DNA of 64,000 nucleotides from Chitinophaga sp. LS1 (GTDB lineage Bacteria > Bacteroidota > Bacteroidia > Chitinophagales > Chitinophagaceae), in the NCBI RefSeq assembly GCF_034274695.1, contig NZ_CP128362.1, positions 8,558,501 through 8,622,500 on the forward strand, written 5' to 3'. The position numbers were made by a program, and so were the translations under genes. The notes beneath the pieces were generated by a model. That model had not been told where the DNA came from. It searched no databases and worked only from the letters and a program-made list of their open reading frames with translations. Below, piece after piece: positions 11,516 through 37,149 of the stretch. Each line of letters starts with the position of its first letter. The stretch's first letter is position 1.

Positions 11516-11554
11516 AACAGAATTTTGAGAGTGATGGCGTAAAGAACCTATTCA

Positions 11555-12902: not shown

Positions 12903-13262
12903 GATACCGGTATTATTAAACTTGGTTAATTTACCGTACCAACATACGTTGATTCTTTTACATATTTTTATGTAACAAAAAGGCTGTACAAGTATTAAAT
13001 TAATCCTCTCTCGGAATTTATCTACATAATTCTATCATATATTATTATCCAAATATCAAGTTTGATTTTATTGATCTAAATTCCTTTTTTAAAAACCCCA
13101 ATATCGTCTTCAAACTTAACTTTCGAAGTTATAAATTGAGGGGAAAATTCTTAAGCCCAATTCTATATCGAAATAAAATATATTTTACTACGCAAAAAGA
13201 CTTCGCACTTGTAACATATTTTGACCACCGTATATATCGTAGCTAATAATAACGTTAATCAC
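12903..13262. other. Non-coding gap
   Basis: About 360 bp of very AT-rich DNA between the HTH gene and the HEPN-like gene. No convincing frame, hairpin terminator or repeat was seen. Confidence 0.4.
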
Positions 13263-13916: not shown

Positions 13917-14168
13917 ATCTGATAAGGGATCGACTCAATAAGTGATAATAGTATCGAGTGAGCTTCCTCATTACCTTTTTTTCATTTTAGTTCGGTTATA
14001 AGACTTTTTTAATTATGAACATCGCTTTTCCATATAGTCTCCTAATTAAAAGTTACCGGACCATTGGTTGTGAAAAATTAATAGAATTACTATTTCCAGA
14101 GCTACAGGTAAAACATTGATAAATTCCCTTTGATCCATTAAATTTAATCTTAAAAAAAGCCCCATTAA

Positions 14169-16388
14169 ATGCAACCAGAAGAATCTACACCACATGAATA
14201 CTCAAGGGAGCAAATTGGTAATTTCCATGAAGAAATGCTTGGATCTCTTCCGGACAAGATTAAGCAAAACTATCAAGTGCTTCAAGAGAGATCCAAGCCT
14301 TTCAACAGTTTTCAGCTGATTGCCAATATAAGCCATTACAACCATCAGCACGATGCAAATGAGTATAGTGATTACCGGGATGGCAGGATGTTTATAATCT
14401 CGGAAATCGTGGCTATTCATTGCCTAAAAAGTAGCTTCAAAGAAACATGTGAGGTTCCTGCTCTTGAGTTTTATGAGGCGGTCCAGGAAATTCAGGAGAG
14501 TACTTCAAGCTATTTTGGATTAAGTTCTGCTTTGGAAATGGACCAGCAGTATAACCAAAATGCCTCAACCCTAGAGCAGATTACCCATAAGCTTCACAGA
14601 GATGAAGTTGTAGTCAGAAATCCAGGGCACCCTGACTATCATTTACTTTTCAATTCTGAACTTTACGAACCTCTTAAACAAGAATTGACTAATTATTTTG
14701 GTTTCAGCCTCGAGGAATCAATCATTATACGCCAGCAGGTGTTTAAAATGATTAATGAGAGGTTCCAGGTGCAGATAAAAAATGTAAAGCTCCAAGCAAG
14801 CAAGCTTGTTGAGCAGGTTGAAAACTATAAAAGAAATGGAAAGTTTCCCGAGGAATCTCCTTTGATAAAGGAGCAATTTAAAGAACTTAAAAACACGCCC
14901 GCTAAGCGGTTATATAAGTTGTTCCTAGGACATTATACTAATGAAATATTATTTAATCTTCAGAATGTTTACGCCTTCACTGCGGAGGAACTTGCAGTAT
15001 ATTGTAAGCTTTCGGTTGACTCCGTCAAAAAATTCCTCACACAATTATCGGTAAGATTCGGAGAAGTGGATCCTAATCAGGATTTAATAATAGCAAATAG
15101 TATCCTAAAAAGTAAACCCATCATTAATCATGGCGAGTACTACATTATTCCATCTTTTTCATTACTCACTTGGAGCGTAGAACCATTATATGAAAACTTT
15201 ATTAAAACAAGCCCTAAATTATCTGCCAAATTTAAAGATAATAAGCACGATTTCCTTCTAACCAAAGGTATGGAGTACTTCTCTAGATTGTTTAGCCACG
15301 GTACCATGCATCCTCAAAATCTTTTCTATGAAAAAGATGGGAATGTCTGCGAAACTGATGGACTAATCGCATACGACACTATATTATTTGTGATTGAGGC
15401 TAAAGGAAATCGAATCACGAGCAAGGCTAAAGAAGGTAATTTTCAACGCACCGAATCGCATTTAAAAGACCTAATAAAAGATGCCACGCTTCAGGGTAAA
15501 CGAACTGTAGATTTTATTAGGGAGTCAGGGGAAGCAGTGTTTTTCACCAAAGGAAAAAAAGAAATTATCATAATTGACTCCAAAAAATATGACGAAATAT
15601 TTATTGTCAGCCTCACCCTTGAGCCTGTAGGTCATTTGACACCGTTGATTAAGGTAGCTAACGACCTAAATTTCTTTCCAGAACATGTATTCCCTTGGAT
15701 TATCAGCTTGTACGACCTAGTAGTTATAGCTGATCACATAGAACTAGACATACTGTTTCTACATTATTTAAGGAGACGCCAGCGCTTTCTTCAGTTCGAA
15801 TATTTTCAGATATACGAAGAAATCGATATGCTTGCCTACTACCTTAACAATGGATTGTATGTTGAGCATATATTGAATGAGATTCAAGAAAATAGTATTA
15901 CTGGGATGAGCTTTGATAATAACACAGATGCCATTAATGACTATTATAACTACATGTTTGGACACAAAAAAAAGTTTACTCCGAAGGTGAAAAGCCATTT
16001 GCCAGAAGACTTTATTAAACTTTTGATAGCAATAGAAAATTCTAGTATCTCGCATCGAACCAAGATCATGCTGGAAATGTTGTCTGCCAATACAGAATCT
16101 ATTAAAAAGCTCATGGCATACATCAAAAAGGTCAGAAATCAATATCGTAAAGATAGAAAACTACATGACTGTTCGATTTGTTTTGGAAGTGGTGACAATC
16201 AAACAGGTATTACTTATATGATAGCCAAGGATCATCAGGAATTGGATTTTATGCTTTATCATTTCTGTTTGAATAAATTCAACAGTTTAAAGCCTGTTGC
16301 CTGGGTAGGCATCGGCGATGTTGATCCAGATAATAATTATAATATTCGTTGTAGTTTTATCGCTATGGTGCAATTCGAGGAGCAATAG
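14169..16388 (+). CDS. Large protein with PD-(D/E)XK-type nuclease core
   Basis: 739 residues, start ATG 14169. The N-terminal half is helical with no recognised domain. Around residues 394-415 there is a restriction-endonuclease-like signature: ETDGLIAYDTILFVIEAKG, i.e. an Asp, a strand, then E-x-K. After it come helical regions and a C-terminal part (SICFGSGDNQTGITYMIAKDHQELDF). It is the first gene of a four-gene plus-strand run with a GHKL ATPase and a second E-x-K protein, a layout typical of antiphage systems. Specific function is unknown. Confidence 0.65.
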   Translation: MQPEESTPHEYSREQIGNFHEEMLGSLPDKIKQNYQVLQERSKPFNSFQLIANISHYNHQHDANEYSDYRDGRMFIISEIVAIHCLKSSFKETCEVPALEFYEAVQEIQESTSSYFGLSSALEMDQQYNQNASTLEQITHKLHRDEVVVRNPGHPDYHLLFNSELYEPLKQELTNYFGFSLEESIIIRQQVFKMINERFQVQIKNVKLQASKLVEQVENYKRNGKFPEESPLIKEQFKELKNTPAKRLYKLFLGHYTNEILFNLQNVYAFTAEELAVYCKLSVDSVKKFLTQLSVRFGEVDPNQDLIIANSILKSKPIINHGEYYIIPSFSLLTWSVEPLYENFIKTSPKLSAKFKDNKHDFLLTKGMEYFSRLFSHGTMHPQNLFYEKDGNVCETDGLIAYDTILFVIEAKGNRITSKAKEGNFQRTESHLKDLIKDATLQGKRTVDFIRESGEAVFFTKGKKEIIIIDSKKYDEIFIVSLTLEPVGHLTPLIKVANDLNFFPEHVFPWIISLYDLVVIADHIELDILFLHYLRRRQRFLQFEYFQIYEEIDMLAYYLNNGLYVEHILNEIQENSITGMSFDNNTDAINDYYNYMFGHKKKFTPKVKSHLPEDFIKLLIAIENSSISHRTKIMLEMLSANTESIKKLMAYIKKVRNQYRKDRKLHDCSICFGSGDNQTGITYMIAKDHQELDFMLYHFCLNKFNSLKPVAWVGIGDVDPDNNYNIRCSFIAMVQFEEQ

Positions 16389-16583
16389 CAATGATATACC
16401 ACCTTACATTTTCAGCGTGTAAACATTTAAAATAAAGATTAAAATATCATTATATGGTAAGTAAGCATGAAACTGGAAAATATATGTAACTACGCATCAC
16501 ATATATTTTATTATACTTTTTACTTTAAAGTAGAATCTAAGCTAAATAAATGGTTATTAAAAATCCCCCATCAATCTACCAAT

Positions 16584-16958
16584 ATGAATGAAATTGTGCG
16601 CAATAAACTCATAGCAACTGCACGGGCAAAAGGAGAGCAGACTATAACCTATCAGGAATTATCAGACCAATGTGAACTAGGTTTGGTTATGCGAGATTCC
16701 GAATATGCACGGTCGGAGATAGGTAGAATATTAGGTGAGATATCGGCTTATGAGCATAGGCATGAACGCCCCCTATTGAGCGCACTTGTATTGACTAAAG
16801 GAAGTAATTATGAAGGTGATGGCTTTTTTAAGATTTGCGAAGAACTAGGCTTTGGCCCATGGCGAAAACTTCAGAAGGATATAACGTTTCCTATAATTCA
16901 AATGAAGCGCTGTTACGCTTTCTGGAAAGATGAAGAAAATTTTGGACGCTATTACTGA
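16584..16958 (+). CDS. Small hypothetical protein in the nuclease/ATPase run
   Basis: 124 residues from the ATG at 16584 (MNEIVRNKLIATARAKGEQ). The frame is open from 16467, but the extra 39 residues are AT-rich and unlike a protein start, so the internal ATG is preferred. It ends with FWKDEENFGRYY and has a conserved-looking middle (LVMRDSEYARSEIGRILGEISAYEH...LTKGSNYEGDGFF). I do not recognise the family with certainty; it resembles short proteins that accompany restriction-type genes. It lies 26 bp before the GHKL ATPase gene. Confidence 0.6.
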   Translation: MNEIVRNKLIATARAKGEQTITYQELSDQCELGLVMRDSEYARSEIGRILGEISAYEHRHERPLLSALVLTKGSNYEGDGFFKICEELGFGPWRKLQKDITFPIIQMKRCYAFWKDEENFGRYY

Positions 16959-16984: not shown

Positions 16985-19900
16985 ATGTATACTTGGGAAC
17001 AAATCAATGAAGAAAAGGATAAAATTTCCGTAGAAAGTCATAGCGAGGCTGTTTTTACGGGTATTAATGAAACTATTCTTGAAGGAGATAACCAGGCACG
17101 CTGGTTTTGGGAACTTTTGCAAAATGCTAAAGATGCTGTTGAAGATAACCAAACAGTCAGTGTACGGTTAATTATTACAGAGAATGAAGTTGTATTCAAA
17201 CATGACGGCAATACTTTTGAACTGGCTGAAATACTTAAGCTGATCACACAGGGCTCCAGTAAAAAAGGCAAAGCCGGTAAAACAGGGCGCTTCGGGACCG
17301 GTTTCATTGCTACTTATATTTTATCAAGAAAAGTTCGGATCCGGGGTACATTAGACGATAGTACAACATTTAATTTTATACTGGACCGGGAAGCAGATAA
17401 AGCGCCTGATTTCCTGATAAAACAGCAGCAGTCCACAATGGATTTTTATACATCTTTCAATAGGGAGAACCAAGCTGACCTCGGACCTTTTACAACCAGC
17501 TTTACTTACCAACTGAGCGATATTGGTAAAACCGCATCAACTTCAGGGCTTGAAGAGATTGCCGAATACTTGCCCTATGTACTTGCCTTCAACCCGAAAT
17601 TTAAAAATATAAGCGTTAATGTCAAAGGGGTGGAAATGCTTTATGAAAAATTGAAGTCCATAATATACCAAGGCTATTCTCACTTGTTGGAAGAAGTTGG
17701 CATTACATATAGCATTGAAGGAGAACCTGCCCAACAATCGGTTATTAAAGTAATTGGAGATAATTGGCAATCAGGTTTCAAAATTGAGATCACAGGGGAT
17801 AGCCGCACGTTTACATCACCGAATACACACACGCCGAATTTATTTGCGTCTTTTCCGCTTTTGGGCACCGAAGTCCTCGGCTTGCCATTCGTTATACACT
17901 CCGCAACGTTTGGCCTTAAGCATGAACGGAACGGGGTATTTCTTGGTACGGGCACCAACGAAGTCATATTGCAGAATAAAAAAAGCATTGAGGAAGCAGT
18001 TGCGACGCTGCCATCGATCTTAGAATGGTCTTTGGCGCAAAATGTTGAACATCGGTTTAATATCATCACATTTTACGACCGGCAGGGACCTAAATGGCTG
18101 GATGAACAGTGGCTAAAGTCCGTTAAACTTTCAGCGATTACTAATATTATTTCGATTCCATTAGTTACGACCCAGGGAAGTGATAATACACCTATAACAA
18201 TCGCTGATCTCATTATTCCTGGAGAAGGTGATACAGCCACACGCAATACAATGCTTACGCTGCTTAAAGATTTTGCACCAGCAAAAATCCCACTTGAAGA
18301 TGAAGCGGATAAGTGGCATCAATTTGTTGTGAATGCTGCATCTTTTCCTGATGAAAACCAGACAATTCAGAAGAAAAAATTTATGCTTCCCGATTTCTGC
18401 TCTCTGATAGAGAACGAGGATAATCTGCCCAGCTTGCAGAAGAAATTGGGCACAAGGGCCGCCATTCCATGGTTGAATGAGTTGTATATATTGCTTGGCG
18501 GTGGAGATATCAGCCTATTTTATAAATCAGCGCTAGTACCCGTGCAAAGCAAGCAATTGGTTAAAGTAGATGTAAGTATCAAAATTGACGAAATAAAAGA
18601 TGAAACTTTATACGCCGTTTCAGAGTTATTGGGTACAAATTTGTTCCCTACATTAGTTGAACCTGGTATCGAGCTTCCGATTGATCTTTGCGGATCATAT
18701 AAGAAGGAAGATCTCGTCAATAAACTGATCGCTGAAAATGCACTTCAGCCTGTTACCGCTTTTTTGGATCCGAAACTGATGAAGGCGAATGCCCTAATGT
18801 TAAAATGGTTGATTGTAAACAAGAGGGGAAATTTTATTAATGCTTTCTTAGTTATTACCGCAGGTGAAGATCAAAGTAGGAACATTATTTTCTTTAAGCA
18901 CCCTCTTGGCGCTTATTCGGATAAAAAGCAAAAATTACTGGCACCAAAATCTATCTGGCGCAATACGTTTAAGTTGTTTGAAAAGCTGGTTAGAGACCGT
19001 GATTGCCTGCATCATGTCTATGCAGAAATTCTAAGTAAAGACGAATTGGAATGGTTGGCGGATAACTGGTTTATTCATTTGTCGCCATTGATCAAATGGA
19101 CAACTCCCCTAAACAAAAGTGTAGCTACCCAACTGTTGAAAGACCCAGAAAAGGAGAATTTATTGTTTGATGAAAATGAGTTTAGCAAAATTGAGGAAAT
19201 AACTTACAGTGATTTCGCGTTTTTTACAGCCACTGACAACCATATTTTATCTAATAGTTCGACTGCGCAATCGTCTATAGAAATTTTGCAATTTGCGCTT
19301 GAGGAAGCGGTAATGGTGGATGACGACTATAATCAATTTCATATGGTAACACTGAAGTCAGGACAGCAGGTAGAATTTAGAAAGGCTTTATGGGTAGGCC
19401 GTCTGAAAAACAATCAGTGGATCAACGTTAAAAACATTTCCGGCGAAGCAGCCCAGCATTATTCGGCAGAGCGTCCATCATCTCAAAATCTATCAGGCTT
19501 GATCAACTCAGCGCCATATCTTAAAACACTCATCAGGAATGAAAAGGCAACTGAGTTACTAAATCTACTTGGAGTTAGCGTCTCTGACCTACTTAAAAAC
19601 ACTTTAAGTACTGACGCTGAAAAAGTTGCCTGGGAACGTGCTTTTACCGCTTTATTGACCGCAAATTTAGACCCTGTACTAGCTGAGGTTATGTTGAAAG
19701 ACAGAAGTCTTCAAAACGAGTATCGAAAGCGCCAGCAAAATATGGAGTTAATCAACCGTAATCAACAAATTGGTGGACTATTAGAAAAGGAATTCAAGAA
19801 GCTATTTTTAAGACCCGAACTCCTTCATCTTGACATTGAGCGAAGGCCATTTGGAAGTGACTATATTATCTCACCGGAGAGTTCTGATTTGGTTGATGAA

Positions 19901-20287
19901 AATGGAGAGAAAATTGTCTTCCGGGTCGGTTCGTGGTATCTCGAGCTCAAGGCTACTGGAAAAGATTATGCAGCGATGACAAGATTGCAGGCCCAACGTG
20001 CGGTCGAAAACCCATCCAGCTATGCGCTAGTAGTATTACCATTGAACAATTATGAAATTAATGCAGATAACATTCTAAAGTACATCAGGTTTGTAAGGAA
20101 TATTGGCGAAATACTAACCGCAAAATACAATGAGGTCAACTTGCTGAAGACACAACAGAGCCTAGTTGCTATTCCGACTGATAAGATAGAAGTGGCAATG
20201 GAAGAAGAAGATATTAGATACAATGTTAAAGCATCTGTGTGGACACACGGCGAAATAATGATGGACTTTGTCAATAGCTTAAAATAA
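16985..20287 (+). CDS. GHKL ATPase (sacsin/Hsp90-like) with C-terminal DUF3883-like nuclease domain
   Basis: 1100 residues. An N-terminal histidine-kinase/Hsp90-type ATP-binding fold is shown by the N-box FWELLQNAKDAV (about residues 42-53) and the glycine loop GRFGTGFIATYILS (about 101-114), with a later FGLKHERNGVFLG typical of sacsin-like ATPases. The long middle is unassigned. Near residue 980 the sequence WYLELKATGKDYAAMTRLQAQRAV matches the DUF3883/NO VEIN type PD-(D/E)XK-like domain (E-x-K). Such fusions occur in antiphage loci; here the neighbours at 14169 and 20494 also carry E-x-K motifs. An ATP-gated nuclease is inferred. Confidence 0.8.
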   Translation: MYTWEQINEEKDKISVESHSEAVFTGINETILEGDNQARWFWELLQNAKDAVEDNQTVSVRLIITENEVVFKHDGNTFELAEILKLITQGSSKKGKAGKTGRFGTGFIATYILSRKVRIRGTLDDSTTFNFILDREADKAPDFLIKQQQSTMDFYTSFNRENQADLGPFTTSFTYQLSDIGKTASTSGLEEIAEYLPYVLAFNPKFKNISVNVKGVEMLYEKLKSIIYQGYSHLLEEVGITYSIEGEPAQQSVIKVIGDNWQSGFKIEITGDSRTFTSPNTHTPNLFASFPLLGTEVLGLPFVIHSATFGLKHERNGVFLGTGTNEVILQNKKSIEEAVATLPSILEWSLAQNVEHRFNIITFYDRQGPKWLDEQWLKSVKLSAITNIISIPLVTTQGSDNTPITIADLIIPGEGDTATRNTMLTLLKDFAPAKIPLEDEADKWHQFVVNAASFPDENQTIQKKKFMLPDFCSLIENEDNLPSLQKKLGTRAAIPWLNELYILLGGGDISLFYKSALVPVQSKQLVKVDVSIKIDEIKDETLYAVSELLGTNLFPTLVEPGIELPIDLCGSYKKEDLVNKLIAENALQPVTAFLDPKLMKANALMLKWLIVNKRGNFINAFLVITAGEDQSRNIIFFKHPLGAYSDKKQKLLAPKSIWRNTFKLFEKLVRDRDCLHHVYAEILSKDELEWLADNWFIHLSPLIKWTTPLNKSVATQLLKDPEKENLLFDENEFSKIEEITYSDFAFFTATDNHILSNSSTAQSSIEILQFALEEAVMVDDDYNQFHMVTLKSGQQVEFRKALWVGRLKNNQWINVKNISGEAAQHYSAERPSSQNLSGLINSAPYLKTLIRNEKATELLNLLGVSVSDLLKNTLSTDAEKVAWERAFTALLTANLDPVLAEVMLKDRSLQNEYRKRQQNMELINRNQQIGGLLEKEFKKLFLRPELLHLDIERRPFGSDYIISPESSDLVDENGEKIVFRVGSWYLELKATGKDYAAMTRLQAQRAVENPSSYALVVLPLNNYEINADNILKYIRFVRNIGEILTAKYNEVNLLKTQQSLVAIPTDKIEVAMEEEDIRYNVKASVWTHGEIMMDFVNSLK

Positions 20288-20493: not shown

Positions 20494-22131
20494 ATGGTCA
20501 TATATATTTCAGCTGAAGAAATTTTCATTACTTACGAACAGCGTTCTGCCACGAAATATCATACGCAAATAACGAACCATATCATTCAAAAGTTTAATCT
20601 TAAGGAAATTGGCGATCCTTCAAATCTTGGGGCCATCTTAGAAGAATGTTACGATTGGTGCGCACAAGAATTTACCAAGGTTATATCGGTGATTGACGAT
20701 AAACTATTTGTAAACTACTTGTTTGCATTCCATGAATCTTCAATAAAACTTTGGACCCGTTTGTTAAGTGGGGAGAATATTTACCAAACGATTGCCATAA
20801 AGGAAGATGACTTAGCAATAAACAGGAGGATATTAAAACTTGCATTGGAACAGACTTGTGACGTAACCTATACTCGTATTTCCCAAACAACTGCAGCCAT
20901 ACTCCGTCAATATGATGAAATAATAGAAGACCTATTGTTTCTTGGATCAGAACTAATCGGTTTTGCTCAATACCTAGCCGAAATGCGAATGATCCGTGGA
21001 ACGCTGCTACTGGACATTGATACAGATGGATATTTGAAATTGGTAAGACCTCCGGCAATTGAGGCGATATTCTCAAAATTGATAGAGGTTATGAACGAGG
21101 ACTTCAAGTATGGCATATTTGACGAAAAGGGAGTTGATGAGATGAAAGACGCGTTAAAAAATTGTTTGGGTATAGATTATGACTTTGCTGGCCATCAAAT
21201 AGTTCACATAAAAAAGCACCACAGTCCTCAAGGCTGGGAATTTCAAACAATAGAACCTGGCATCCTTATTCAAAACCAAGTGAGCCAGGGAACCAGCCGG
21301 GAGAACGCTACGAACTTTTATAATGGTCTTACTTTCAACCGTCAGAATAAGTTGCCTATCAAAGAATCCGTATATAAAGTTAATTCCATGGAAAGACATC
21401 TATTTCGTCCAATTCTTGTAGTTAACGAAAATGGAAACGACCGCCATCTCATTGGTGTGCAAAAATGGGCAGAAAGCATTACTGTTCTTGCGACTAATGG
21501 TTTTCAATGGAACAAGGCCGCCAGCGAATGGAAAAATAATCCCTGTTTTGTAAAGTACTTGGATAAAAAAAGTGAGGAACATGATAGTCTTTTGGAAGAT
21601 GAAGTTGTAAAAATATTAGAACATCTACATCTACCCTATGATAGAAATATACTTTCTTTTTCGGACGGAAGGAAGTATTCTGTTAAGGTTGACGTACAAG
21701 GTATCGGTGAGATGGATTTTGTCTGGGTTGATCCGAAGAGAAATGTAATCGTAGTCGCTGATTGTAAATATAATCGTGCCAGATATGATATGCTTTCCTT
21801 TTCAGCCGATTACTCCAATTTCAAGCAAACTTATGAACTCAAAATTGCCAATAAAGTCAGTTGGGTTCAGGTAAATAGGGAACTTGTTTGTAATCATCTC
21901 ACCCACAAATATCCTGGTCTTTCCATTAAACCGGCAGCTTTCAGGGTGGAAGGGATGTTCATAATCAATACACCTACATTTTATATGGTTAATGGAGCTG
22001 TTAAAACTGTTTGCTTTTTCCGTCTTGCGGATTTTATAAATAATAATTATATGCCTCCTCGTCTTGCAGTCTCCGAAAGGTCATCAAGAGGCTGGCGCAT
22101 AAAAGTAATCGACTATCCATATTTTAAGTAG
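20494..22131 (+). CDS. PD-(D/E)XK-type nuclease-like protein
   Basis: 545 residues. The C-terminal third has a restriction-endonuclease-like core: VKVDVQGIGEMDFVWVDPKRNV then VVADCKYNRARYD (about residues 400-432), giving E/D-D...D-x-K. Such cores occur in McrC-like and other defence nucleases. The N-terminal ~300 residues are helical and unassigned. It is 206 bp downstream of the GHKL gene and convergent with the graspetide operon. It may belong to the same system as the three genes before it or stand alone. Confidence 0.65.
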   Translation: MVIYISAEEIFITYEQRSATKYHTQITNHIIQKFNLKEIGDPSNLGAILEECYDWCAQEFTKVISVIDDKLFVNYLFAFHESSIKLWTRLLSGENIYQTIAIKEDDLAINRRILKLALEQTCDVTYTRISQTTAAILRQYDEIIEDLLFLGSELIGFAQYLAEMRMIRGTLLLDIDTDGYLKLVRPPAIEAIFSKLIEVMNEDFKYGIFDEKGVDEMKDALKNCLGIDYDFAGHQIVHIKKHHSPQGWEFQTIEPGILIQNQVSQGTSRENATNFYNGLTFNRQNKLPIKESVYKVNSMERHLFRPILVVNENGNDRHLIGVQKWAESITVLATNGFQWNKAASEWKNNPCFVKYLDKKSEEHDSLLEDEVVKILEHLHLPYDRNILSFSDGRKYSVKVDVQGIGEMDFVWVDPKRNVIVVADCKYNRARYDMLSFSADYSNFKQTYELKIANKVSWVQVNRELVCNHLTHKYPGLSIKPAAFRVEGMFIINTPTFYMVNGAVKTVCFFRLADFINNNYMPPRLAVSERSSRGWRIKVIDYPYFK

Positions 22132-22192: not shown

Positions 22193-22963
22193 TTAACGAA
22201 ATGAATTCTTTTCCTTTTTCTCCGGCACCGTGATTTGTACATTCACTATGGTTGTATCCTTCTTTTTGCCTAACTGCTTAAGCTCTCCGTTAATGCTTCT
22301 TAAGTCCTTAATGACTACTGGGCCCTCGATGCTAACAGAATTTTTTTCAGGTTTGTAAAAAACCATTGCAATAGCGAAACACGCAATCAATAGACCAGTA
22401 AGCACGTTTGCATATTTGAACGCAACGTATGCATGCAAAAGATTAGTTCCCTTTTTATTGTTATTATGGACATTTCTTGTCTTACCAGACAAATAATCTC
22501 TTATCTCCTCTGCGAGAAACTCAGCCTCACTTTTATCTTTAAAATCAATTACGTTTTGGGCACTTGGACGAACATACTGGAAATCACTAAGTCTGTAGTT
22601 TTTGAGGGCGTTGTGTATACTTAACACATAAAATAGCGCAGAGAATATCAGCAGGATAATCAGTAATACTTTATATGTGACATGGAACGATGCTGTCTTA
22701 TCCATGATAAATGGGATAAAAAGACTGAGCAGCGCAAATATAATCCCTACCTGGGAAATAAGCTGTGAGCCCTTTGTATCAATCGAATCAAGTCGATTTT
22801 GTTCCTCTTCCTCCAAGCCTTTTAAGAAATCTCTGTGTGTTTTTAGTTTTTCTACCTGATCATTTTGGTTTTGATATGTGCCAGAAGGCAAATCCGCACC
22901 AGCGTCCGGGTGCTTATACCCCAGTCCAAGCGACTGGAAAAAATCTTTTAACTTCTCACTCAT
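22193..22963 (-). CDS. Three-helix membrane protein, last gene of the caspase-graspetide operon
   Basis: 256 residues. A soluble N-terminus carries the helix EEEEQNRLDSIDTKGSQLIS, then two close transmembrane helices (about residues 70-90 GIIFALLSLFIPFIM and 97-116 LLIILLIFSALFYVLSI), a cytosolic linker, and a third helix near 185-205 (LTGLLIACFAIAMVFY); the C-terminus is charged (VPEKKEKN). The layout, with D-x-K before the first helix, recalls membrane effectors of nucleotide-signal defence systems (SLATT or PycTM type), but no firm assignment is possible. Its start overlaps the ligase stop by 8 nt, so it is translated with the ligase. Confidence 0.7.
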   Translation of the reverse strand: MSEKLKDFFQSLGLGYKHPDAGADLPSGTYQNQNDQVEKLKTHRDFLKGLEEEEQNRLDSIDTKGSQLISQVGIIFALLSLFIPFIMDKTASFHVTYKVLLIILLIFSALFYVLSIHNALKNYRLSDFQYVRPSAQNVIDFKDKSEAEFLAEEIRDYLSGKTRNVHNNNKKGTNLLHAYVAFKYANVLTGLLIACFAIAMVFYKPEKNSVSIEGPVVIKDLRSINGELKQLGKKKDTTIVNVQITVPEKKEKNSFR

Positions 22964-23885
22964 TGCTAGACTTATTTATCAATTCTTTGATAATTGCATC
23001 GCTGATTTGCAGGCCAGTTTCATTTTCAATCCATGCCCACTGTCCATTGGGGTTAATCTCCAAGAACGTATAGGATCCATCAGGTGACAATATCAGATCG
23101 ATAGCACCGAACAAAAGCCCTAAATTGCTCACCAAGGAGATGCATTTTGAGGCGATTTCCGCTGGGAGTGAAAATGTTTCAAATTTAAGTGCCTTACGCC
23201 GCCAGTCGACCTTACTCTCTTCGTTCTGTTGTGAATCGACGGATGCTGCAAAAACATCCTTGCCTACAACAGTGACCCTTAGCTCAACATGTTTACTGAT
23301 CTCTTCCTGAAAGATACAAGGGGTTAGATCAAACTTGGAGATATTTTCAAGATGTTGTTTCTCAACACGATTGGTATAGATGAACATCGGCTCCTTTGTA
23401 CTGCTACTTCGGGTGGCAGAAATTGGTTTAACAATCATTTCCCCCACTTGGTTGGAAAATGAGATCAACTTTTTATGATCCGTTGTCACTAATGTTTTAG
23501 GAATCTTAAACCCAACTTCCATTGCAGTCCTCAGCTGAAACAGCTTATTTTCTGCCCGATAAACATGCCATGGGCTGCTTAACCATTTCGCCTCAATGAC
23601 TGTGAAAATATTTTTTAGCAGGCTATCGTACTCCGCCTGTAGATAAGTAACCTCGTCCTCAACCAACCCTTGTATGAACGGTATCTTTGTTCTTCGAAAC
23701 CATACTGAGGTAAAGTTCTTCACACCAAAAATTTCTGATTGAAAATTTCCATCATATAACAGGCTAACTCCCGAGGTCATAACATCCTCACAGTTGAACC
23801 TTTTGTAGGGAATACTTCTTTGGTTTAAGATATTGATGAGGTAATCTGCCGTATAGTCTTGCTTGTGGGTAATAATCAGGATCAT
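22956..23885 (-). CDS. ATP-grasp graspetide (microviridin-type) peptide ligase
   Basis: 309 residues. Matches the MvdC/MvdD class of ATP-grasp ligases, which join side chains of Ser/Thr or Lys to Asp/Glu of a precursor peptide as esters or amides. Visible motifs: SVWFRRTKIP (about 60-69), WLSSPWHVYRAENKLFQLRTA (101-121), MIVKPIS (ATP binding), FGAIDLI (259-265) and the Mg/ATP loop LEINPNGQW (275-283), complete for catalysis. The start codon shares its A with the precursor's stop (TAATG), so the two are coupled. It is the only graspetide enzyme in the operon. Confidence 0.9.
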   Translation of the reverse strand: MILIITHKQDYTADYLINILNQRSIPYKRFNCEDVMTSGVSLLYDGNFQSEIFGVKNFTSVWFRRTKIPFIQGLVEDEVTYLQAEYDSLLKNIFTVIEAKWLSSPWHVYRAENKLFQLRTAMEVGFKIPKTLVTTDHKKLISFSNQVGEMIVKPISATRSSSTKEPMFIYTNRVEKQHLENISKFDLTPCIFQEEISKHVELRVTVVGKDVFAASVDSQQNEESKVDWRRKALKFETFSLPAEIASKCISLVSNLGLLFGAIDLILSPDGSYTFLEINPNGQWAWIENETGLQISDAIIKELINKSSNE

Positions 23886-24226
23886 TAAAAATCGTTGTCT
23901 GGTTGTTCCTGGATCACTCTCGTTTGGGTGGATGTGGCCATCAACATATGAAGGTTGTGGCGATCCTTGTCACTCTCCGTAACCTCATTACTCACCAAGG
24001 TCACTAACTCTGTGCCCATCATCGCCTGAAAACTGGTTGGATCGGAATCAGATGACTCACTTAATACTTTTGTACCAGTAACGGTTCCCATCTTTAAAAT
24101 ATCAATGGCGGGCTTACCCGTTGATAGATCAATGTTCAAATTGAGATTACTATCGTATGAAATTTTTGAATAGTCCACGTCCGCTGATTCAGCTGTTTCC
24201 CTGAATTGAAAGATAAATGGCTTCAT
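23885..24226 (-). CDS. Graspetide precursor peptide
   Basis: 113 residues. The N-terminus KPFIFQFRE is the leader type bound by graspetide ligases in Bacteroidetes, followed by DYSKISYDSNLNLN. The C-terminal half is rich in Thr/Ser and Asp/Glu (SESSDSDPTS, SNEVTESDKD, ATSTQTRVIQEQPDND), the residues that become linked. No Gly-Gly export site and no Cys. It is long for the class. Directly upstream of and overlapping its ligase. What the modified product does, and whether it leaves the cell, is unknown. Confidence 0.85.
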   Translation of the reverse strand: MKPFIFQFRETAESADVDYSKISYDSNLNLNIDLSTGKPAIDILKMGTVTGTKVLSESSDSDPTSFQAMMGTELVTLVSNEVTESDKDRHNLHMLMATSTQTRVIQEQPDNDF

Positions 24227-24320
24227 AAAGCGTCAAATTGATATTAATATCAAATATATGGAAAACTTAATCGTATTCACAATGATTCTAAACCCGCAAA
24301 CCTGTCAAAAATGTGTTGAG

Positions 24321-27300
24321 TTAAGGCTTGGCTGTATTATTCTTGAGGGCACTAATCACTGTGCTAAATTCGTTAGCTCCCCTATGCGCATTTAGACACT
24401 CCTGCTCAATCGTCTCAATTCTGTATTGCAAAGTGGTAAGTCTGGGAAATGACTCCATGTGATCAACTTGGAACTGACGTAACTCCTGACATACGGCCTT
24501 TCCATTGGCAATAGATTGCTTTGCTATGTTGGTCAGCCCACTAATGACCGTATTTTCCAAATCATTGAAAACATCACCTTTATTGACCGGCTCCTGTGCC
24601 AGCTTTAATAGCGTCAATAATTGCGGTAAGAAATCAATTTTCGTTAATTTGGTAAAATCCGCGTAATGGACATCATAATATCTACCCGCGGTCAAATCCT
24701 CAACCAATAAATTTAAGCCTATTCCCAGATCTTGTTCGATTAGGATATTTACGAGCCGCTGTCTCTCATGTTCATGCAAATTACCTTGGGCCAATAGCGC
24801 TTGTGCCCTCTCCTGTACAAAGTCTAGATATTGCTCTGCCTTTGAAATCACCCTTAGCACCCCTATCTTTAAGGTTATTGATTTCGTTTGATCGACAAAC
24901 CATTTAAGCGATTGATAATTATTGGTAACCTTAATCCAAAAATGGATCAGCTCATCTTGTTGATGCCGATCTCCCTGTTCTGCGAGTTTGCTCATAATTA
25001 GATCATAGGCCGCTATGATTTGCTTTCTTAACGCATATGCAGCATTATTGATCCAGACAGAAAAACGACTATCGTCCTCAAGATTGGTTAATACCCTTGC
25101 TTGCAGCTCATCTTTTCCAATATACTGTTCGAGGATCTCCAATTGGCTCTCCGCGTTAATCTGGTTATTTGCGGGTAAGGCGAACTGGCTTGACATATCT
25201 AGTAATCTAGGTTGGTCAACTTCCAAAATACCCTTTCGCGTCAACGACCAAAACAGTCTGTCATGTCCTGGGAATTGGCCCATTGCCTTTCTAATGTATT
25301 CCAACTGGGTATCGTTGAGCATCTGAGGCGTTAAATCGGCAACTTGATCTAACCGCTCCAATTGAAAGAAAAGCAATTTTTTTTCGTTCGATAGCCAATT
25401 TAACACCAGATCAAGGGAAAGGTCACGCTTCAGTTCCTTTCTGATATGGTAAAGTAGATTAAACGCAAATTCATGAACGTAGTCCTGGCTTGACTTAAAG
25501 GACGTGTTACTTAGTTCTCCAATCTTTCTTAGATCAAGCACATTTTTGCCCGCTATTTGAAAAACACCTTTCACTTCCCCCTTGATAAGTTCTGGATCGG
25601 TTAATAATATCCTACCATAGTCTTTCCGCTCTGCTCGAATTCTTTCCCAATCAATTTCTGCTGGCATATCACCCCTAAAGTCATGCCTTTTGATTGATGT
25701 CGTTTCAAATGAGCTTAAATATTCCGGGCTATTTCTTCGTTGATCATATAGCATTCGATGAAAGTACCTCGTTCGATCAACACTAATCTCTGATGCGACA
25801 AACGATTCTGCAATCTGCTGGCATCCATTTGGCGACAGCAGCGGATAGCTCAATTGTTCCAAGTCATAAGGATCCAGATCACCCTTAATCCAAATATCCA
25901 TTAATACAGAGACATCGTTGCCTGTTGAGATAAATACATTTGCACAGTCTCGCCGCAGGTCGTAGTGATATCCCTTATAGATTCCGATGTACAGGTCGAT
26001 AAGAGTTGGCAAAAGGTTTTGGTCAGTATTTAGGGCATTTTTGAAATTATCCAATATTTTCACGAAGCCCTCTCTGTGATGATAGGATAGCACGCCGACC
26101 AGCTCTGCATCGTCCTTGAGTAGATTGCCTATTAAATCTCCTATGCCAGCTGAAGAGGTAATTGTCAGTAGAGCATCGAAAAGTCCGCTTTCCTCATCAC
26201 CCAAGTTGGTACAATCACGACCTGTACTTGATATACCCCCAGATAACATTTGGAGCCCATTCAATAAGTAGGACACCTGTGCTTCCGCATCTTCAATGTC
26301 CTTAATGAGGTTATAAATCATAGCGCGGTTGTAGGCATTATCATTTGATTTATAGGTGGTCAAGACCTTATCATAAAATTCCCTAGCGGCCATTTTTTTA
26401 CGAATCATCAGCTTAACCACCCCTAACCGATCGGAGGGGTCTAAACGCATATCGAAAACAAGTCTAGCCAAATAGAGTTTAAATTCCTCCCATTGTTCTT
26501 CCTTGCCGCTTAAGTCAACATAGTTCAGGATATAGACCAGATTCATCAATCCAATTCGAGTAGTTTGTCTATTCCTGAGCTGGTCGATGATAAAAGATAT
26601 AGTTGAGTCGTTATTGGCAAGGTGGCCTAAATCAATTACGGTATAGCGGTTCGACATCATCCAAAGGTCTTTTTCCACGTAACTGTTATAAAGCTGTTGG
26701 AATAATGTAGCCCGTAAATCTTCGTTTAGCCTTTCCTGCTCGAACTTTAAAATGCTGACGGGGTCATTTTCTTTTAGCCAGCCCACTAACTCACTTCGCA
26801 ATTCCTCATTGCACATACTGAATAGAAAAGTTAGGATGTTAACCCATAAGGGGTTTATACCCCTCCCGACTAAGCGTTCCTCGCTCACTAGCTTGATTAG
26901 TGCCTCAAAACTCAACTCCGATAAGTGCTTAGCGCATAGGAATTCTTGAAGGTTCTTATGTGTAAAAGACCATTTACCGGTATCGTTGTCCCTTACCAAA
27001 ATAGATTGTTGGTCCAAGATGGGCAATTCATAGCCCAGTTCCTCAAGCTCTTGTTGCGTAATGAAAACTCCTCCGCTATATGAGAGTGCAAATGCAACTC
27101 CCTTTACAAGGCGCTCTATCGGTGTTCCTACTAACACCCCACCTTCTACTAACGTCTGTTCATTCAACAGCCAGCGTGCAACATTCAGGTTATGGTGTTT
27201 TTTGTAGTTTGCGATCAACTGAAATAGACTATAGGGTTTTCCGATCAAGTCTGTAAAATGATTGATCTGAACTTGCTGAAAGAACTCATCTGCATTAATT

Positions 27301-28607
27301 CCCTCAGCCCCCAAAAGGGCGATGATTCCCTCGTATTCAAGATTATCTACTTCAAGGGTCAGAAACCCAGGTAGTAGGTCAATGCTTTCCCTTTCAACAT
27401 CCCTGAGATAGATATTTTTCCGACAGCTAACAATAATCTTTGCCATAGGGTAGCGCTTGGTCAAATCAAGGATCGTGATTACCGTTGCTTCAAAATTCTC
27501 TGGCGAAACCTCATCTAGGCTATCTAGGAAAAATATACTTCTTTGCTCTCCATCTATACCTATCCTATGTTCAATTTGAGCCATAAGCAAACCTGGTGAG
27601 AGGCTTGCCAAACTTTGGAAAGTTGGTACTAGATAAGAATGATAGTCCTCCATGTACCTGGCAGTCTCGATCAGCTCTCTACTCTTTCCACTTCCCGCCT
27701 CTCCAATAACAACGATGTGATTATGCGATTCGATTGCCTCATTGAGTGAGTACCCCTGAAAACCAATGCCCTGAGAGGTAAATTCACCGACAACGGTCCT
27801 ACGGGCTAGTGTTCTTGCTATGTATCCACTTTGGACTAGGTGGGTAGGAATAGCCAAGGGGCCTGAAGCTCTTGGGGCACTGTTTCGGTCAAGCTCAAAT
27901 AAAAACTCTCCATGTTCATTCCCAAAGGAATCAATCTCTGTTGCCAGGGGTGTTTGATAGCTTCTGCTTGGCGTAATTTTTTTGATTTGGCCAATTACCT
28001 GGTAAATCGATACAGCGGGTTTTGTGTTGGCTTCAAGGTATGAGCAAAGAGTCTTGCTAAAGGGGCTGTTAAATCCGGGAGCGCCGTCTCCTACAGGTTC
28101 TAAGCGTCCGGCGGAGATAGCGATACGTGAGGAAAGCTTTTTGGGGTTTCCCATGTTGGGCCGAAGCGGAAAATGCTCATCAGTCAGTGATCCGGAGAAA
28201 CAACTATCGGATATAACGATAATGTGCTTTGCCCATTGGTTCATTCTGACATAGTTCAATATCGCCTCATGGGATATCGTATCAGATAGTTTCCCCGTAC
28301 TGTCATAGGGTACCCAGTGTCCCTTTCCCCTGGGCTGCTCAATTCCGTGCCCGGCAAAGTAAATGAGCAGTGTTGCGTCCTCATCATCATGCCATTCCCA
28401 ACTTTCCTCAAGCGCCCGGTGGATATTTGCATAGGTGGCATCCTCATCGAGCAATGGACTTCTCAATTGCTTAAATCCATATCTCTTCTCCAAGACTTGC
28501 GTCAGCCTTTTAATATCAGCCTTCGAGTTTTTTAAATCCCCTATCTTATTTTCCGGAAGGTATTGATCAATCCCGATCCCCAAAAAATATCTGCTCCCAG
28601 TCTTCAT
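24321..28607 (-). CDS. Caspase-like peptidase fused to a P-loop NTPase (STAND/NACHT-like)
   Basis: 1428 residues, first gene of the operon. Residues 1-240 form a C14 caspase domain: YFLGIGIDQYL start, catalytic His87 in LIYFAGHG and Cys136 in VISDSCFSG, both intact. A P-loop NTPase follows: Walker A GEAGSGKS (302-309), Walker B SIFFLDSLDEV (about 357-367) and SCRKNIYLRD, as in NACHT/AAA STAND proteins. The remaining ~900 residues are helical repeats with no clear domain, a plausible sensor. Family knowledge: such proteins act as ligand-triggered proteases in bacterial immunity. Here it is coupled to a graspetide precursor, ligase and membrane protein. The modified peptide could be its substrate, activator or inhibitor; that is inference. 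Confidence 0.88.
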   Translation of the reverse strand: MKTGSRYFLGIGIDQYLPENKIGDLKNSKADIKRLTQVLEKRYGFKQLRSPLLDEDATYANIHRALEESWEWHDDEDATLLIYFAGHGIEQPRGKGHWVPYDSTGKLSDTISHEAILNYVRMNQWAKHIIVISDSCFSGSLTDEHFPLRPNMGNPKKLSSRIAISAGRLEPVGDGAPGFNSPFSKTLCSYLEANTKPAVSIYQVIGQIKKITPSRSYQTPLATEIDSFGNEHGEFLFELDRNSAPRASGPLAIPTHLVQSGYIARTLARRTVVGEFTSQGIGFQGYSLNEAIESHNHIVVIGEAGSGKSRELIETARYMEDYHSYLVPTFQSLASLSPGLLMAQIEHRIGIDGEQRSIFFLDSLDEVSPENFEATVITILDLTKRYPMAKIIVSCRKNIYLRDVERESIDLLPGFLTLEVDNLEYEGIIALLGAEGINADEFFQQVQINHFTDLIGKPYSLFQLIANYKKHHNLNVARWLLNEQTLVEGGVLVGTPIERLVKGVAFALSYSGGVFITQQELEELGYELPILDQQSILVRDNDTGKWSFTHKNLQEFLCAKHLSELSFEALIKLVSEERLVGRGINPLWVNILTFLFSMCNEELRSELVGWLKENDPVSILKFEQERLNEDLRATLFQQLYNSYVEKDLWMMSNRYTVIDLGHLANNDSTISFIIDQLRNRQTTRIGLMNLVYILNYVDLSGKEEQWEEFKLYLARLVFDMRLDPSDRLGVVKLMIRKKMAAREFYDKVLTTYKSNDNAYNRAMIYNLIKDIEDAEAQVSYLLNGLQMLSGGISSTGRDCTNLGDEESGLFDALLTITSSAGIGDLIGNLLKDDAELVGVLSYHHREGFVKILDNFKNALNTDQNLLPTLIDLYIGIYKGYHYDLRRDCANVFISTGNDVSVLMDIWIKGDLDPYDLEQLSYPLLSPNGCQQIAESFVASEISVDRTRYFHRMLYDQRRNSPEYLSSFETTSIKRHDFRGDMPAEIDWERIRAERKDYGRILLTDPELIKGEVKGVFQIAGKNVLDLRKIGELSNTSFKSSQDYVHEFAFNLLYHIRKELKRDLSLDLVLNWLSNEKKLLFFQLERLDQVADLTPQMLNDTQLEYIRKAMGQFPGHDRLFWSLTRKGILEVDQPRLLDMSSQFALPANNQINAESQLEILEQYIGKDELQARVLTNLEDDSRFSVWINNAAYALRKQIIAAYDLIMSKLAEQGDRHQQDELIHFWIKVTNNYQSLKWFVDQTKSITLKIGVLRVISKAEQYLDFVQERAQALLAQGNLHEHERQRLVNILIEQDLGIGLNLLVEDLTAGRYYDVHYADFTKLTKIDFLPQLLTLLKLAQEPVNKGDVFNDLENTVISGLTNIAKQSIANGKAVCQELRQFQVDHMESFPRLTTLQYRIETIEQECLNAHRGANEFSTVISALKNNTAKP

Positions 28608-31984: not shown

Positions 31985-32508
31985 TCCAATTTTCTCTTTT
32001 TGCCCAAAAGAATTAGAATTCAAACTGGTAAAGGATTCTGTTGGTTCGAAATCACTAAACTTCATTTGGTTTAGTGAAAATAAGAGGTGAAAGAGCTTCT
32101 AAACACCTTCGTCTATTATTGATAATCCTCTGAGTGAATTACTTTTTCAAGGCCATACAACTACAATGCTATGTATGCTCCCGTAGATTCGACTTGGAAA
32201 TTTAGAGATTGACAAATGATTTGAAATATTATATCGGCCCAACTGCACTATAAGTTACGAGATTTAATTTCTAATAGGTACTGTAAGACCGTCAATCATT
32301 CAATTATACAACCTACATGTTATAACATTTATCCCCAACTATAAATACTTTTACTATCAAACCCAACCTATAACCCGGGTTTCCCTGTATCTTTTCCTGC
32401 TATATTGTCATGAGCATCAAAATGATATACCCTTATTCGCAAACCGTTGGTTCTCTGATGATATTATTTACCATCCCAGACCCATTCCCTATACCATTAG
32501 TATTTATA

Positions 32509-35500
32509 ATGAAAAAAATTGTATTCTCCTTATTCCTATCTGTCATTGCTATGAACTTCGTCACGGCACAGGTCAATCCTGTCGTTCCTCTTCCCGCGGA
32601 TCAGGCAGAATTATTTAAATATACCAGTACTCCTGTCAGCATGTATACTGGTGTTCCACAAATCTCTTATCCGATCTACGAGATTAATACAGGGAAGATT
32701 AGAGTTCCCATTACACTCAGTTACCATGCGTCAGGTATAAAAGTCGGACAAAAAGCAACCTGGGTAGGCCTCGGATGGACTTGCATGCCCGGCGGAAACA
32801 TTTCCAGATCCATCCGTGGCTTAGAGGATGAAACCACAGCTAAAGGCTGGTTTAACCATTACATCAATATTGACACGGTTGAACTGATCAATGATTATTA
32901 CCTGATGCGTTCCTGGGGAGAAAGCGGCGGCCTTGATTTACAACCAGATTTCTTCAACCTAAGTATACCTGGTAAATCCTGCCGGTTCTATTACTCCAGG
33001 CGAGATAAGAAATTTGTAACCGCCCCTTATCAGCCTGTCATCATCACCAGAACAAGCGACAATAATTATCAGGTTACTGACGATGACGGTACGCGCTATA
33101 AATTTGAACAAAAGCTCTATTCGTTTTCCGATGACCAAGGCGTAAAACGACATATTGTTGGCTGGAACCTGACAAGTATCATTTCCAACGACTCAAAAGA
33201 TACTGTGACATTCACCTATGTGGCAGATACTAATTCTGCGGACAGGGGACTAGATGAAACACATTCTTATAGCAAGTTGTATCATTATAATCAAAAACAG
33301 GATGAACAAGGCGGCTATGTGCCCGATGATGCAATAAAATCCTATTCCTACTCCTATAGCAATACGCCCAAAATATCAGAAATCACTTTCCGTCAGGGAA
33401 AAGTCAGGTTCTACGCGGGTACAGTCCGTTTAGATTACGGTGGTAATGCGCTGGACAGCATTGTGGTATATAGCAATGATAATGGTAGCTATCAACGTAT
33501 TAAAAAAGCAACCATGGCATATGACTACTTCTATGATGGGAACAGCTATCCAACATTTGGTGATTACAGGTTAAAACTTCTTTCTTTTTCAAAGGAGGAT
33601 ATGGAAGGACAACAACCAGAACGTTATAGTTTTGAATATGACAATACTACACTACCAAATACCGCCTCCAATGGTGTAGACTGGTGGGGTTTCTATAACG
33701 GGAATGCTAATCAGTTTACGTTGTTACCACAGGCACTTCCGGAAAAAGAATTTCTTCAAAATTTTGGGAATCTTGGTATTGCAAACAGGGAACCTTCTGC
33801 AACCGCAATTCTTGCAGGAACACTCAACAAGGTTATTTATCCTACTGGAGGTTATACAAAGTATAATTTTGGCATTTCCAGGTATTACGATGTCTCCACA
33901 TATACCAGCTTACAGAACCTGGTAGATGTCACGTTTACAGGATTATCTGCATCCAGGCAATCAATTCATGATACAAGTATTATCTTTCAGGTAAAGCCTC
34001 CCTTCAATAAGAGTCTCACAAACTCAATTGTTATCAATCTTACTTACTCCACACACTCACCGAATTCAAAGACGAATGCTCAATTAGTGGAATTATATGA
34101 CCTGGACATCAGCACCACCAGCCAATTGCCATTGTCTTTAGATGCAAAAGGAAATGGCACATCGCCTGAAATAATTACCGCTTCATACAATTGCGATTCC
34201 AGTCATACCTACAAATTGCGCCTTTATATTGATGATTATAGCACTACTAGTATAAAAGCGACCATAAGTATGTCCATCCTTAACCAGGTAGGAACAAGTT
34301 CAATGGGCGGGGGTATTAGAATCGAATCTATCGAATCATATAATTTAGACAATATCCTCCAGAAAAAAGAAGTATATAAATACGGACCATCACAAAATGA
34401 AGGAGGTGCCTTGTTGATACCAGCAGATGAGATCCGTAGCAAAAACTATACTGGCATTGAAACTTACAGAAATATGGTTCATGGCACTGCATCATGTATT
34501 TCTACATTAGGTTACCGGTATACCTTCTATGGCCAGTCATATTATCCGGCTGTTACATTCCAGGGAGCAAATGTTGTATACAACTATGTGTATAAATATG
34601 AGTATAACAACGACAAGCCCAATGGTTTGACAATGTATCAGTATGCACTGCCAACAGATTATACAACGATTGCAAATCCCAGTACCTTTGGAGGCAAGGA
34701 AAGAGTGGATAATTCATTGGCAGATGAGCTGCTGCTGGATGAAAAAGTATTCAGGTTTAATATCGCTGACAGTACTTTCAGTCTTATTAAATGGACCAAT
34801 AACTCATATGGGGTTAATAATCTCTCAATTGATACGGCTATCCTCATTTATCCAAAACGGATATACCTGGACGACCTATGTGGAGACGAAACCGCCCAAA
34901 ATAGCTTTGGATTTAGCTATATACCCTTAAAAAGCGGGGCTCGTAATATAGCCGCAACCACCGTTCGTGAATATGATGACAATGGAACCATGTTTGAAAA
35001 TGTAGTCAACTACACCTATAATAATAAAAACTATCCCAGATCAATTACAAGGATCAATAGCAAGCGTGATACGATCGTTAACAAAATATATTATCCAGGA
35101 GAACATGCAGCTACTGACGGTAATGCATCCGTTCTCAATAGCATGGTATATAGAAATATGATTCGCCAACCTTACTGGCAGGGTAATTATACCAATAGCA
35201 ATTTATTGAGCTATAAACACACCTTGTTCGGTAATAGCTGGGGAACCAACGATAGTCTGATCGCTCCAAAAATGGATAGTGCATGGCAGTTAGGAAACGA
35301 CAACAGTTTACCAGCTACTACCATTGCTTATCAGAGCTATGGTCCCTATGGTAATATCCGTCAACTAAGAGATGACAAAGGCATCACCTCTGCTTACACC
35401 TGGACAGCTGATGGCACCTATCCTGTCTCTCAAACCGCGGGGGCACCTATCAATCAGGTATTATATGATGGCTTTGAAGATGCCGGTTCCTGGACAGGCA

Positions 35501-37122: not shown

Positions 37123-37149
37123 TGCATGTTAATCTGGAAAAATCAACAA

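Follow-up and report, generated by a model that had tools for sequence, protein, structure and literature searches.

The window analyzed here, a 64,000-nucleotide stretch of the Chitinophaga sp. LS1 genome, contains four minus-strand genes for a caspase-STAND protein, a graspetide precursor, an ATP-grasp ligase, and a protein with three transmembrane (TM) segments (Table 1). The last three genes, referred to as the triad, probably represent a mechanism, not described so far, by which bacteria kill cells infected by viruses. That they form a mobile immune effector cassette, with the caspase-STAND protein as its trigger in this genome, has in our judgment an even chance of being correct. The fuller reading, to which we assign a probability of roughly 0.4, is that the cross-linked peptide would act inside the cell as gate or trigger of a PycTM-like pore, that the cassette has been plugged into cyclic-oligonucleotide-based antiphage signaling systems (CBASS) as well as Thoeris-like, restriction-modification, and caspase/NLR systems, and that caspase-family proteases of several architectures were recruited independently to fire it. 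An intracellular effector cassette is the best reading because immune genes repeatedly adjoin the triad, no exporter/peptidase is found among the four genes, and the membrane protein resembles PycTM.

All four open reading frames (ORFs) were present where a first-pass annotation of the sequence had placed them, and the overlaps of 1 and 8 nt within the triad and the 94-bp gap between the caspase gene and the precursor were exact. The same annotation had regarded the four genes as one unit. This held in part: the union is real and recurs in a second genome (L038, see below), but the conserved core, as judged from sequence comparison, is the precursor, the ligase, and the 3-TM protein, with the caspase as an accessory. 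For this comparison, ligase loci were collected from named genomes (80 kept of 289 stretches encoding relatives) and viral contigs (10 loci), together with L032 and L033. One of these 92 loci, L056, was left out for its broken ligase frame, and 91 were counted. A small co-directional ORF was located just 5' of the ligase in 83 of the 91 loci and a membrane ORF just 3' of it in 85, both being present in 79. Within the close clade (L032, L033, L038-L079, and L107; 46 loci including the window), both partners flanked the ligase in 42 of 45 loci; the TM frames of L043, L052, and L061 are short or missing. Among the viral loci, both partners were found in 6 of 10 and were missing from L123-L126. 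The caspase was ruled out as a part of the core, as a homologue of the whole caspase-STAND protein occurred, besides the window, in a single one of the 91 loci, L038.

The ligase was recognized as a graspetide enzyme of the MvdC/MvdD type by TIGR04187 (E 7e-69, under the curated cut-off of the model) and by the PDB entry 5ig8, "ATP grasp ligase" (E 5e-46). By these matches it belongs to the enzymes that link the side chains of Thr/Lys with those of Glu/Asp. The precursor matched Pfam PF14404 weakly and below threshold (E 5e-4). The motif T-x4-E, which starts at T52, T76, and T102 of the window precursor, is found at least three times in 60 of 83 precursors, compared to a mean of 1.1 in shuffled precursors of the set. 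An alignment of 33 precursors revealed common leader residues and C-terminal repeats, with the repeat T-x-T-x-T-[KR]-x3-E-x2-D-x-D in the Bacteroidota type and a T-K-T-x4-E-R-D-D type in Pseudomonadota and Bacillota. The window precursor combines a P-h-h leader, a motif described in the accessible part of Makarova et al. (2022; PMC8939145), with a repeated Thr/Glu/Asp core, as expected of a graspetide locus. The ligase matches and the T-x4-E repeats bear out the earlier assignment of both genes. Two tandem precursors precede one ligase in L042 and L043, and three ligase genes lie in a row in L091, where the TM gene does not follow directly.

An internal role of the peptide had been favored from the start, as no exporter had been seen. 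Indeed, none was found among the four window genes, the window precursor contains no GG/GA/GS site (such a site lies within the first 80 residues of 29 of 84 precursors), and the TM protein is similar to an immune effector. The genome possesses a second, ordinary-looking graspetide cluster, L037, about 24 kb from the operon and just outside the window. It comprises a ligase and a 72-aa ORF as well as, by eye from the N-termini, a SPASM-like protein, an ABC peptidase-transporter, and an HlyD-like protein. It probably does not export the window precursor, since identity between the two ligases is only 28%, a separate 72-aa ORF belongs to this cluster, and the window precursor lacks the GG/GA/GS site.

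The 3-TM protein showed hydrophobic segments at residues 68-86, 99-117, and 184-202, and its structural model (predicted local distance difference test score 91) contains long helices at 37-89, 95-123, and 146-202, in agreement with the three TM segments originally proposed. In a PADLOC scan of 69 members of the TM family, three PycTM models were matched by 7, 6, and 2 members (best E 1.9e-5), which made PycTM the most frequently matched name; KwaA, CorA, and two 2TM-effector models were matched by one member each. The window protein alone matched PycTM with an E-value of 0.005. A profile built from twelve PycTM domains of related genomes aligned with the TM-family profile in hhalign over 153 columns (pairwise E 4.7e-5, probability 68%), and the order of the helices was the same in both. 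Single PycTM sequences scored 19.3-34.5 against the TM profile, nine of the twelve above 30, mostly in short alignments (26-131 columns). Out of 70 control TM proteins, three scored above 20 and the others at most 19.7; the three were two triad members missed by clustering (L121 and L127) and L060_u1 (27.7). The clustered hhalign control consisted of one family only. By sequence, a distant relationship of the 3-TM protein to PycTM is probable, and we do not call it a member. PycTM is reported as a pore that disrupts the membrane in the accessible part of PMC11224242. The triad resembles Pycsar (PycC and PycTM) in its presumed 3-TM effector and in the helix order of the profile alignment. It differs in that the TM protein comes with a graspetide and its ligase; no pyrimidine cyclase was found among the Pfam-scanned neighbors in the window, which did not cover every ORF. 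A 174-aa 3-TM protein encoded directly upstream of the triad in L060 (9055-9579) scores 27.7 against the triad TM profile, higher than most controls. Some triad TM proteins carry long extensions (L082, 383 aa; L108, 561 aa with six TM segments; L207, 383 aa), and these extra parts might show the mode of the effector.

Makarova et al. describe, in the accessible part of the paper, thuringinin loci with an uncharacterized membrane protein (cluster 18), for which transport was suggested, and loci of this kind have already been published as biosynthetic, the transporter being presumed. Like the triad, thuringinin loci (precursor cluster 13) contain an ATP-grasp ligase, a multi-repeat T/E/D precursor with a P-h-h leader, and a small uncharacterized membrane protein, mostly without an exporter. 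They differ in being read as biosynthetic, whereas the triad is tied to immune operons and PycTM; cluster 18 may be the same family. The main text of that paper contains none of the words "caspase," "SLATT," "transmembrane," or "defense." The corresponding explanation, an ordinary biosynthetic locus whose thuringinin-type graspetide is exported for competition through the small membrane protein next to an unrelated caspase, appears quite improbable to us. The suggested transport role of cluster 18, which is specific to thuringinin loci, would fit it, as would weak MFS_1 matches in 3 of the 69 TM proteins (best E 0.0025). On the other hand, these 69 members belong to no consistent transporter family and are PycTM-like instead, the window precursor lacks the GG/GA/GS site present in others, and triads are found next to CBASS, restriction-modification, and caspase genes as well as on a phage.

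The caspase-STAND protein is composed of a C14 domain (Pfam E 1.7e-14), a P-loop region of putative STAND type, and a long C-terminal portion. The catalytic dyad and the Walker motifs, which the first-pass annotation had described as intact, were confirmed: His87 lies within YFAGHG and Cys136 within SDSCFSG, and Walker A (GEAGSGKS) and Walker B (IFFLDSLDE) are located at residues 302 and 358. Matches to nSTAND3 (Pfam) and to the NACHT-type HyoA/EruA (NCBIfam) were weak and below the cut-offs. The genome (one 8.67-Mb contig) encodes two C14 genes including this one. In the related genomes of L140-L142, proteins share the P-loop and C-terminal part with the window caspase, and their differing N-termini seem DUF4062-like by eye.

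The same four genes in the same order were found in a Pedobacter UBA5917 metagenome-assembled genome (MAG; L038), in which the caspase gene is cut off by the contig end. The caspases are 44.6% identical over 1344 aa, and identity amounts to 63-66% for the precursor, the ligase, and the TM protein. When the ORFs of 36 kb of the window were compared with the 13.6-kb contig of L038, the four genes matched and nothing else. Further caspase-like genes precede the triad elsewhere: a stand-alone C14 protein lies 5 bp upstream in L039, an AbiJ_NTD3-C14 protein 104 bp upstream in L079, a CHAT protein 73 bp upstream in L051, and a CHAT protein overlaps the triad in L070 (recognized by homology to L051 and a weak match in the genome-wide CHAT search). 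In total, a caspase-like gene is located directly upstream in 6 of the 46 close-clade loci, in four protein architectures. The condition that had been named as refuting the unit, caspase-STAND homologues that never accompany the graspetide genes, did not hold: L038 has the same order, and caspase-like genes precede the triad at four more loci. In L051, the CHAT gene (7661-9583) is followed by the triad and an nSTAND3 protein (11599-15423), which would correspond to the fused protease and STAND parts of the window protein as separate genes on either side of the triad. Mapped on the ligase tree, the caspase-like label requires five changes, at least four of them by well-supported branches. The label shows no clustering (values as low were obtained in 109 of 500 shuffles), and each change may be a gain or a loss. 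That caspase-family proteases were recruited repeatedly favors a peptide or partner that is cut.

When 44 triad genomes were searched throughout, 12 of them gave 35 C14 matches, of which Flammeovirga accounts for 16. Three matches lie directly upstream of a triad, and the genomes of L038 and L039 have no C14 match other than this upstream gene. The four cases with C14 in this slot (window included) compare with 0.006 expected at random placement (P 7e-11) and with 0.64 expected if C14 genes are confined to 1% of the genes (P 0.004; P 0.027 for three cases), probabilities that flatter the case because the slot and the family were picked after the data had been seen.

A candidate promoter, TTG-N21-TATATTTG, which we take to be the Bacteroidota-type consensus, is fully matched between the caspase gene and the precursor, with the TATATTTG box 32 bp upstream of the start of the precursor. 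The same box is found at -30 of the L038 precursor, and no full match was found in the 200 bp 5' of the window caspase. Because of this position, the triad may be transcribed separately or additionally; of the tight operon proposed earlier, the close spacing stands, but a single operon is not borne out. The box precedes 7 of 43 precursors compared to 2.4 in shuffled sequences, which is too weak to claim it as a family-wide feature. The promoter would suit an alternative in which a self-sufficient caspase-STAND protein and a separately promoted triad, itself a defense cassette, are independent neighbors without any coupling. A distant caspase-STAND homologue without a triad (L139) and the clustering of defense genes, crudely seen in the 246 versus 59 PADLOC families matched in flanks (see below), would be compatible with this as well. 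We consider it unlikely, since L038 keeps the four-gene order amid unrelated neighbors, this slot is repeatedly taken by caspase-like genes, of four architectures, and the enrichment survives the correction for a 1% defense fraction with four as well as three cases.

Other immune genes adjoin triads as well. In L057, an Elusimicrobiota MAG, a CD-NTase, Cap2, a JAB gene, the precursor, the ligase, and the TM gene follow each other on one strand (6230-11700). The CD-NTase has a SMODS domain with cAAG synthases as its nearest PDB relatives (7ljl, E 1e-81), Cap2 matched 7to3 (E 1e-61), and the JAB gene occupies the place of Cap3. CD-NTase, Cap2, and Cap3, the latter by its JAB domain, are thus encoded in one run, as in type II CBASS. 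The precursor starts 82 bp after the JAB gene, the run contains no further gene, and the flanks look ordinary by eye. From this arrangement, the triad appears to stand where a type II CBASS operon has its effector. The operon is like type II CBASS (CD-NTase, Cap2, Cap3, effector) in that cyclase, Cap2, and JAB gene precede the triad, and differs in that three genes including a graspetide pathway take the effector place; the window operon has no cyclase. No CD-NTase match was found by Pfam in the four window genes, which are not assigned to CBASS. SMODS was found in 13 of 44 genomes and near the triad only in L057 and L076, the latter about 4.4 kb away with a 4-TM gene of its own in between. 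In L059 (710-3368), a gene with a ThsA-type macro domain lies 48 bp upstream of the triad, near a contig end and a transposase-like ORF (by eye); it is possible that this represents a split Thoeris-like effector. Restriction-modification genes adjoin L042, L065, L066, L067 (by homology), L092, and L206, Fic genes adjoin L055 and L058 (by homology), a DprA-like gene adjoins L063, and KAP-type NTPases lie near L062 and L068. The proposed wider pattern, an effector cassette swapped among several immune systems, had not figured in the first-pass annotation.

The upstream genes scanned were 20 of 61 co-directional ones, picked for a small gap and their size and not at random. They also comprised ordinary genes, such as flagellin (L103), B12/radical SAM (L080), TraD-like (L071), and DUF2130 (L102). 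The upstream genes of L047, L048, L060, and L078 gave no informative match, and neither did L040. The upstream gene was co-directional in 61 of 80 loci compared to a background of 62% (P 0.006), and the downstream gene in 42 of 83 (P 0.03, in the opposite direction). Proteins from triad flanks (150 of 359) matched 246 PADLOC families, compared to 59 for the flanks of other graspetide-ligase loci (128 of 184 proteins), a contrast that is only rough because families and not genes were counted and the control was without long proteins. The control was a random 150 of the 184 from which 22 were left out, seven of more than 1000 aa and the others mainly from the end of the list; its loci, 19 from the same genus and one more from the same family, are alike, and their exporters were not checked one by one.

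The distribution of the triad is patchy. At the cut-offs used, a close ligase was detected in 2 of 395 genomes of the class, one being the genome of the window, and in 2 of 221 genomes of the family of L038 (those of L038 and L040). Larger samples of class and family added one new triad, in G209 (L206), to those of the window, L038, and L040. A ligase match was present in 63 plasmid and 2 phage records. The four that were opened carry triads: a Leptospira phage, a phage scaffold that is unverified, a Pseudomonas aeruginosa plasmid, and a Croceicoccus plasmid. In the phage, LalZ_80412 (L201, 5679-7580), the triad is complete, and the record annotates only a precursor fragment.

For a mobile effector cassette triggered by the caspase-STAND protein, we propose five steps. 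First, the ligase would cross-link the precursor, and the product would stay inside the cell. Second, the cross-linked peptide would bind the 3-TM protein and keep it closed, or form its gate. Third, upon infection the STAND part would assemble and the caspase would be switched on. Fourth, the caspase would cut the peptide between the rings, or cut the TM protein; a candidate linker for such a cut is at Arg89, which separates repeats 2 and 3 and is conserved in the five closest precursors. Fifth, the 3-TM protein would permeabilize the inner membrane, and the infected cell would die before the phage matures. At loci without a protease, another signal might perform the fourth step, e.g., a cyclic nucleotide from the CBASS cyclase of L057. 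We infer a role of the peptide as lock, gate, or substrate. The L057 operon offers a clean test case because the rest of type II CBASS is understood. If the proposal is true, clusters filed as natural-product loci become an immune effector family, looking for secreted products of theirs is misdirected, and the role of graspetide loci with a small membrane protein and without an exporter becomes directly testable.

The peptide as a caspase inhibitor or substrate, as the first-pass annotation had supposed, cannot be the general function of the triad. A wider version, in which the graspetide is a protease inhibitor that restrains the caspase until infection and blocks host or phage proteases where no protease is encoded nearby, is rather unlikely in our opinion. 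In its favor, caspase-like genes repeatedly adjoin the triad, and three core repeats would make a multivalent inhibitor. Such a role leaves the regularly kept 3-TM gene unexplained, for most close-clade triads no caspase-like neighbor was found, and the CBASS operon of L057 has no caspase.

Several observations also weigh against the effector cassette fired by recruited proteases. Only two genomes are known to have exactly this order of four genes, one of them ending inside the caspase, and the CBASS effector slot is one clear case. Of the 46 close-clade loci, 40 have no caspase-like upstream gene in genome-wide C14 and CHAT searches, which did not extend to other proteases. Ten distant caspase/STAND matches, about half of them to the STAND part only, had no triad gene in their flanks (up to about 9 kb, shorter at contig ends). 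The triad may have a promoter of its own, and a transport role was suggested for the membrane-protein family of thuringinin loci in the accessible part of PMC8939145. The PycTM of the same genome (L176) scored 20.9 against the TM profile, near the controls, and most single alignments were short. PF18967 was not among the 25 of 29 Pfam families listed for the 69 TM proteins, whose Pfam matches were stray and weak (DUF2207_C and MFS_1 lead with 3 members each). A Foldseek search with the 3-TM model gave no significant match, only long-helix look-alikes; fold-search rows without the name PycTM do not exclude a kinship with PycTM. The five steps of the mechanism are inferred.

The closest precedent for the logic of such a cassette is provided by the protease-nuclease pairs that immune systems recurrently acquire and by a caspase-nuclease system, both shown by Tuck et al. 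(2025, PMC12799240; accessible part). The canu, bacterial gasdermin, and caspase-type Thoeris systems treated there share with the window a caspase-family protease beside a presumably released effector and the recurrent acquisition of protease-effector pairs. The window differs from canu and gasdermin in its presumed effector, a graspetide with a 3-TM protein instead of a nuclease or gasdermin, and no nuclease or gasdermin match was found by Pfam in the four genes. Bacterial NLR-related STAND/NACHT antiphage proteins are like the window caspase in their N-terminal effector domain, P-loop (of putative STAND type in the window), and long C-terminal part; the differences are that the HyoA/EruA matches are only sub-threshold and that a second effector cassette adjoins. 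For ocean metagenomes, co-expression of ribosomally synthesized and post-translationally modified peptide (RiPP) families with antiphage- and phage-related genes was suggested (PMC11118758), which differs as a correlation for RiPPs at large; its accessible part describes no cassette, membrane effector, caspase, or CBASS. The accessible part of Carter et al. (2026; PMC13097080) presents graspetide groups, of which group 32 has diverse neighboring proteases, and that of PMC12715929 concerns lanthipeptides and contains neither graspetide nor CBASS. In the open-licence literature, among the matches listed, no paper joined a graspetide and a caspase as a system, none contained both ATP-grasp and CBASS, and none described an immune system using a cross-linked ribosomal peptide as an intracellular working part. 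This agrees with the earlier remark that the union is not a named system.

Table 1. Features of the four-gene locus, in window coordinates
Feature	Position	Strand	Length and basis
Caspase-STAND gene (NLR-like, C14)	24321..28607	-	1428 aa; would serve as infection sensor and protease
C14 caspase domain, residues 11-196	28020..28577	-	Pfam PF00656; weak PDB match to metacaspase-4, E 1.6e-4
P-loop stretch, putative STAND type, residues 290-402	27402..27740	-	Walker motifs; sub-threshold nSTAND3 and NCBIfam antiphage HyoA/EruA NACHT
Candidate triad promoter, TTG-N21-TATATTTG	24251..24282	-	match to presumed consensus
Graspetide precursor, leader KPFIFQF...YD..LNLN and three core repeats	23885..24226	-	113 aa; homologue alignments, sub-threshold PF14404
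Precursor core repeat 1, T48-D62, T-x-T-x-T-K-x3-E-x2-D-x-D	24041..24085	-	precursor alignments
Precursor core repeat 2, T72-D86	23969..24013	-	precursor alignments
Precursor core repeat 3, T98-D112	23891..23935	-	precursor alignments
ATP-grasp graspetide ligase	22956..23885	-	309 aa; NCBIfam TIGR04187/TIGR04185 below cut-offs; PDB 5ig8, 7m4s, 7mgv; invariant residues in alignment
3-TM protein, probable distant PycTM relative, presumed membrane effector	22193..22963	-	256 aa

Elsewhere in the window, a Sacsin-like ATPase (16985-20287) matched PADLOC TmtA with an E-value of 3.9e-187. Together with 14169-16958 and 20494-22131, it forms a plus-strand run that meets the four-gene operon head-on and is, by sequence similarity, a candidate second defense locus. 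A group II intron reverse transcriptase/maturase (Pfam RVT_1, RVT_N, GIIM) is encoded at 42504-44204, and a tyrosine integrase (Pfam Phage_integrase) at 44949-45959 points to a mobile region close to the operon. Two very long proteins at 32410-41586, one with DUF5977 repeats and the other with DUF6443 and a C-terminal Peptidase_M91, are perhaps a pair of the polymorphic-toxin type.

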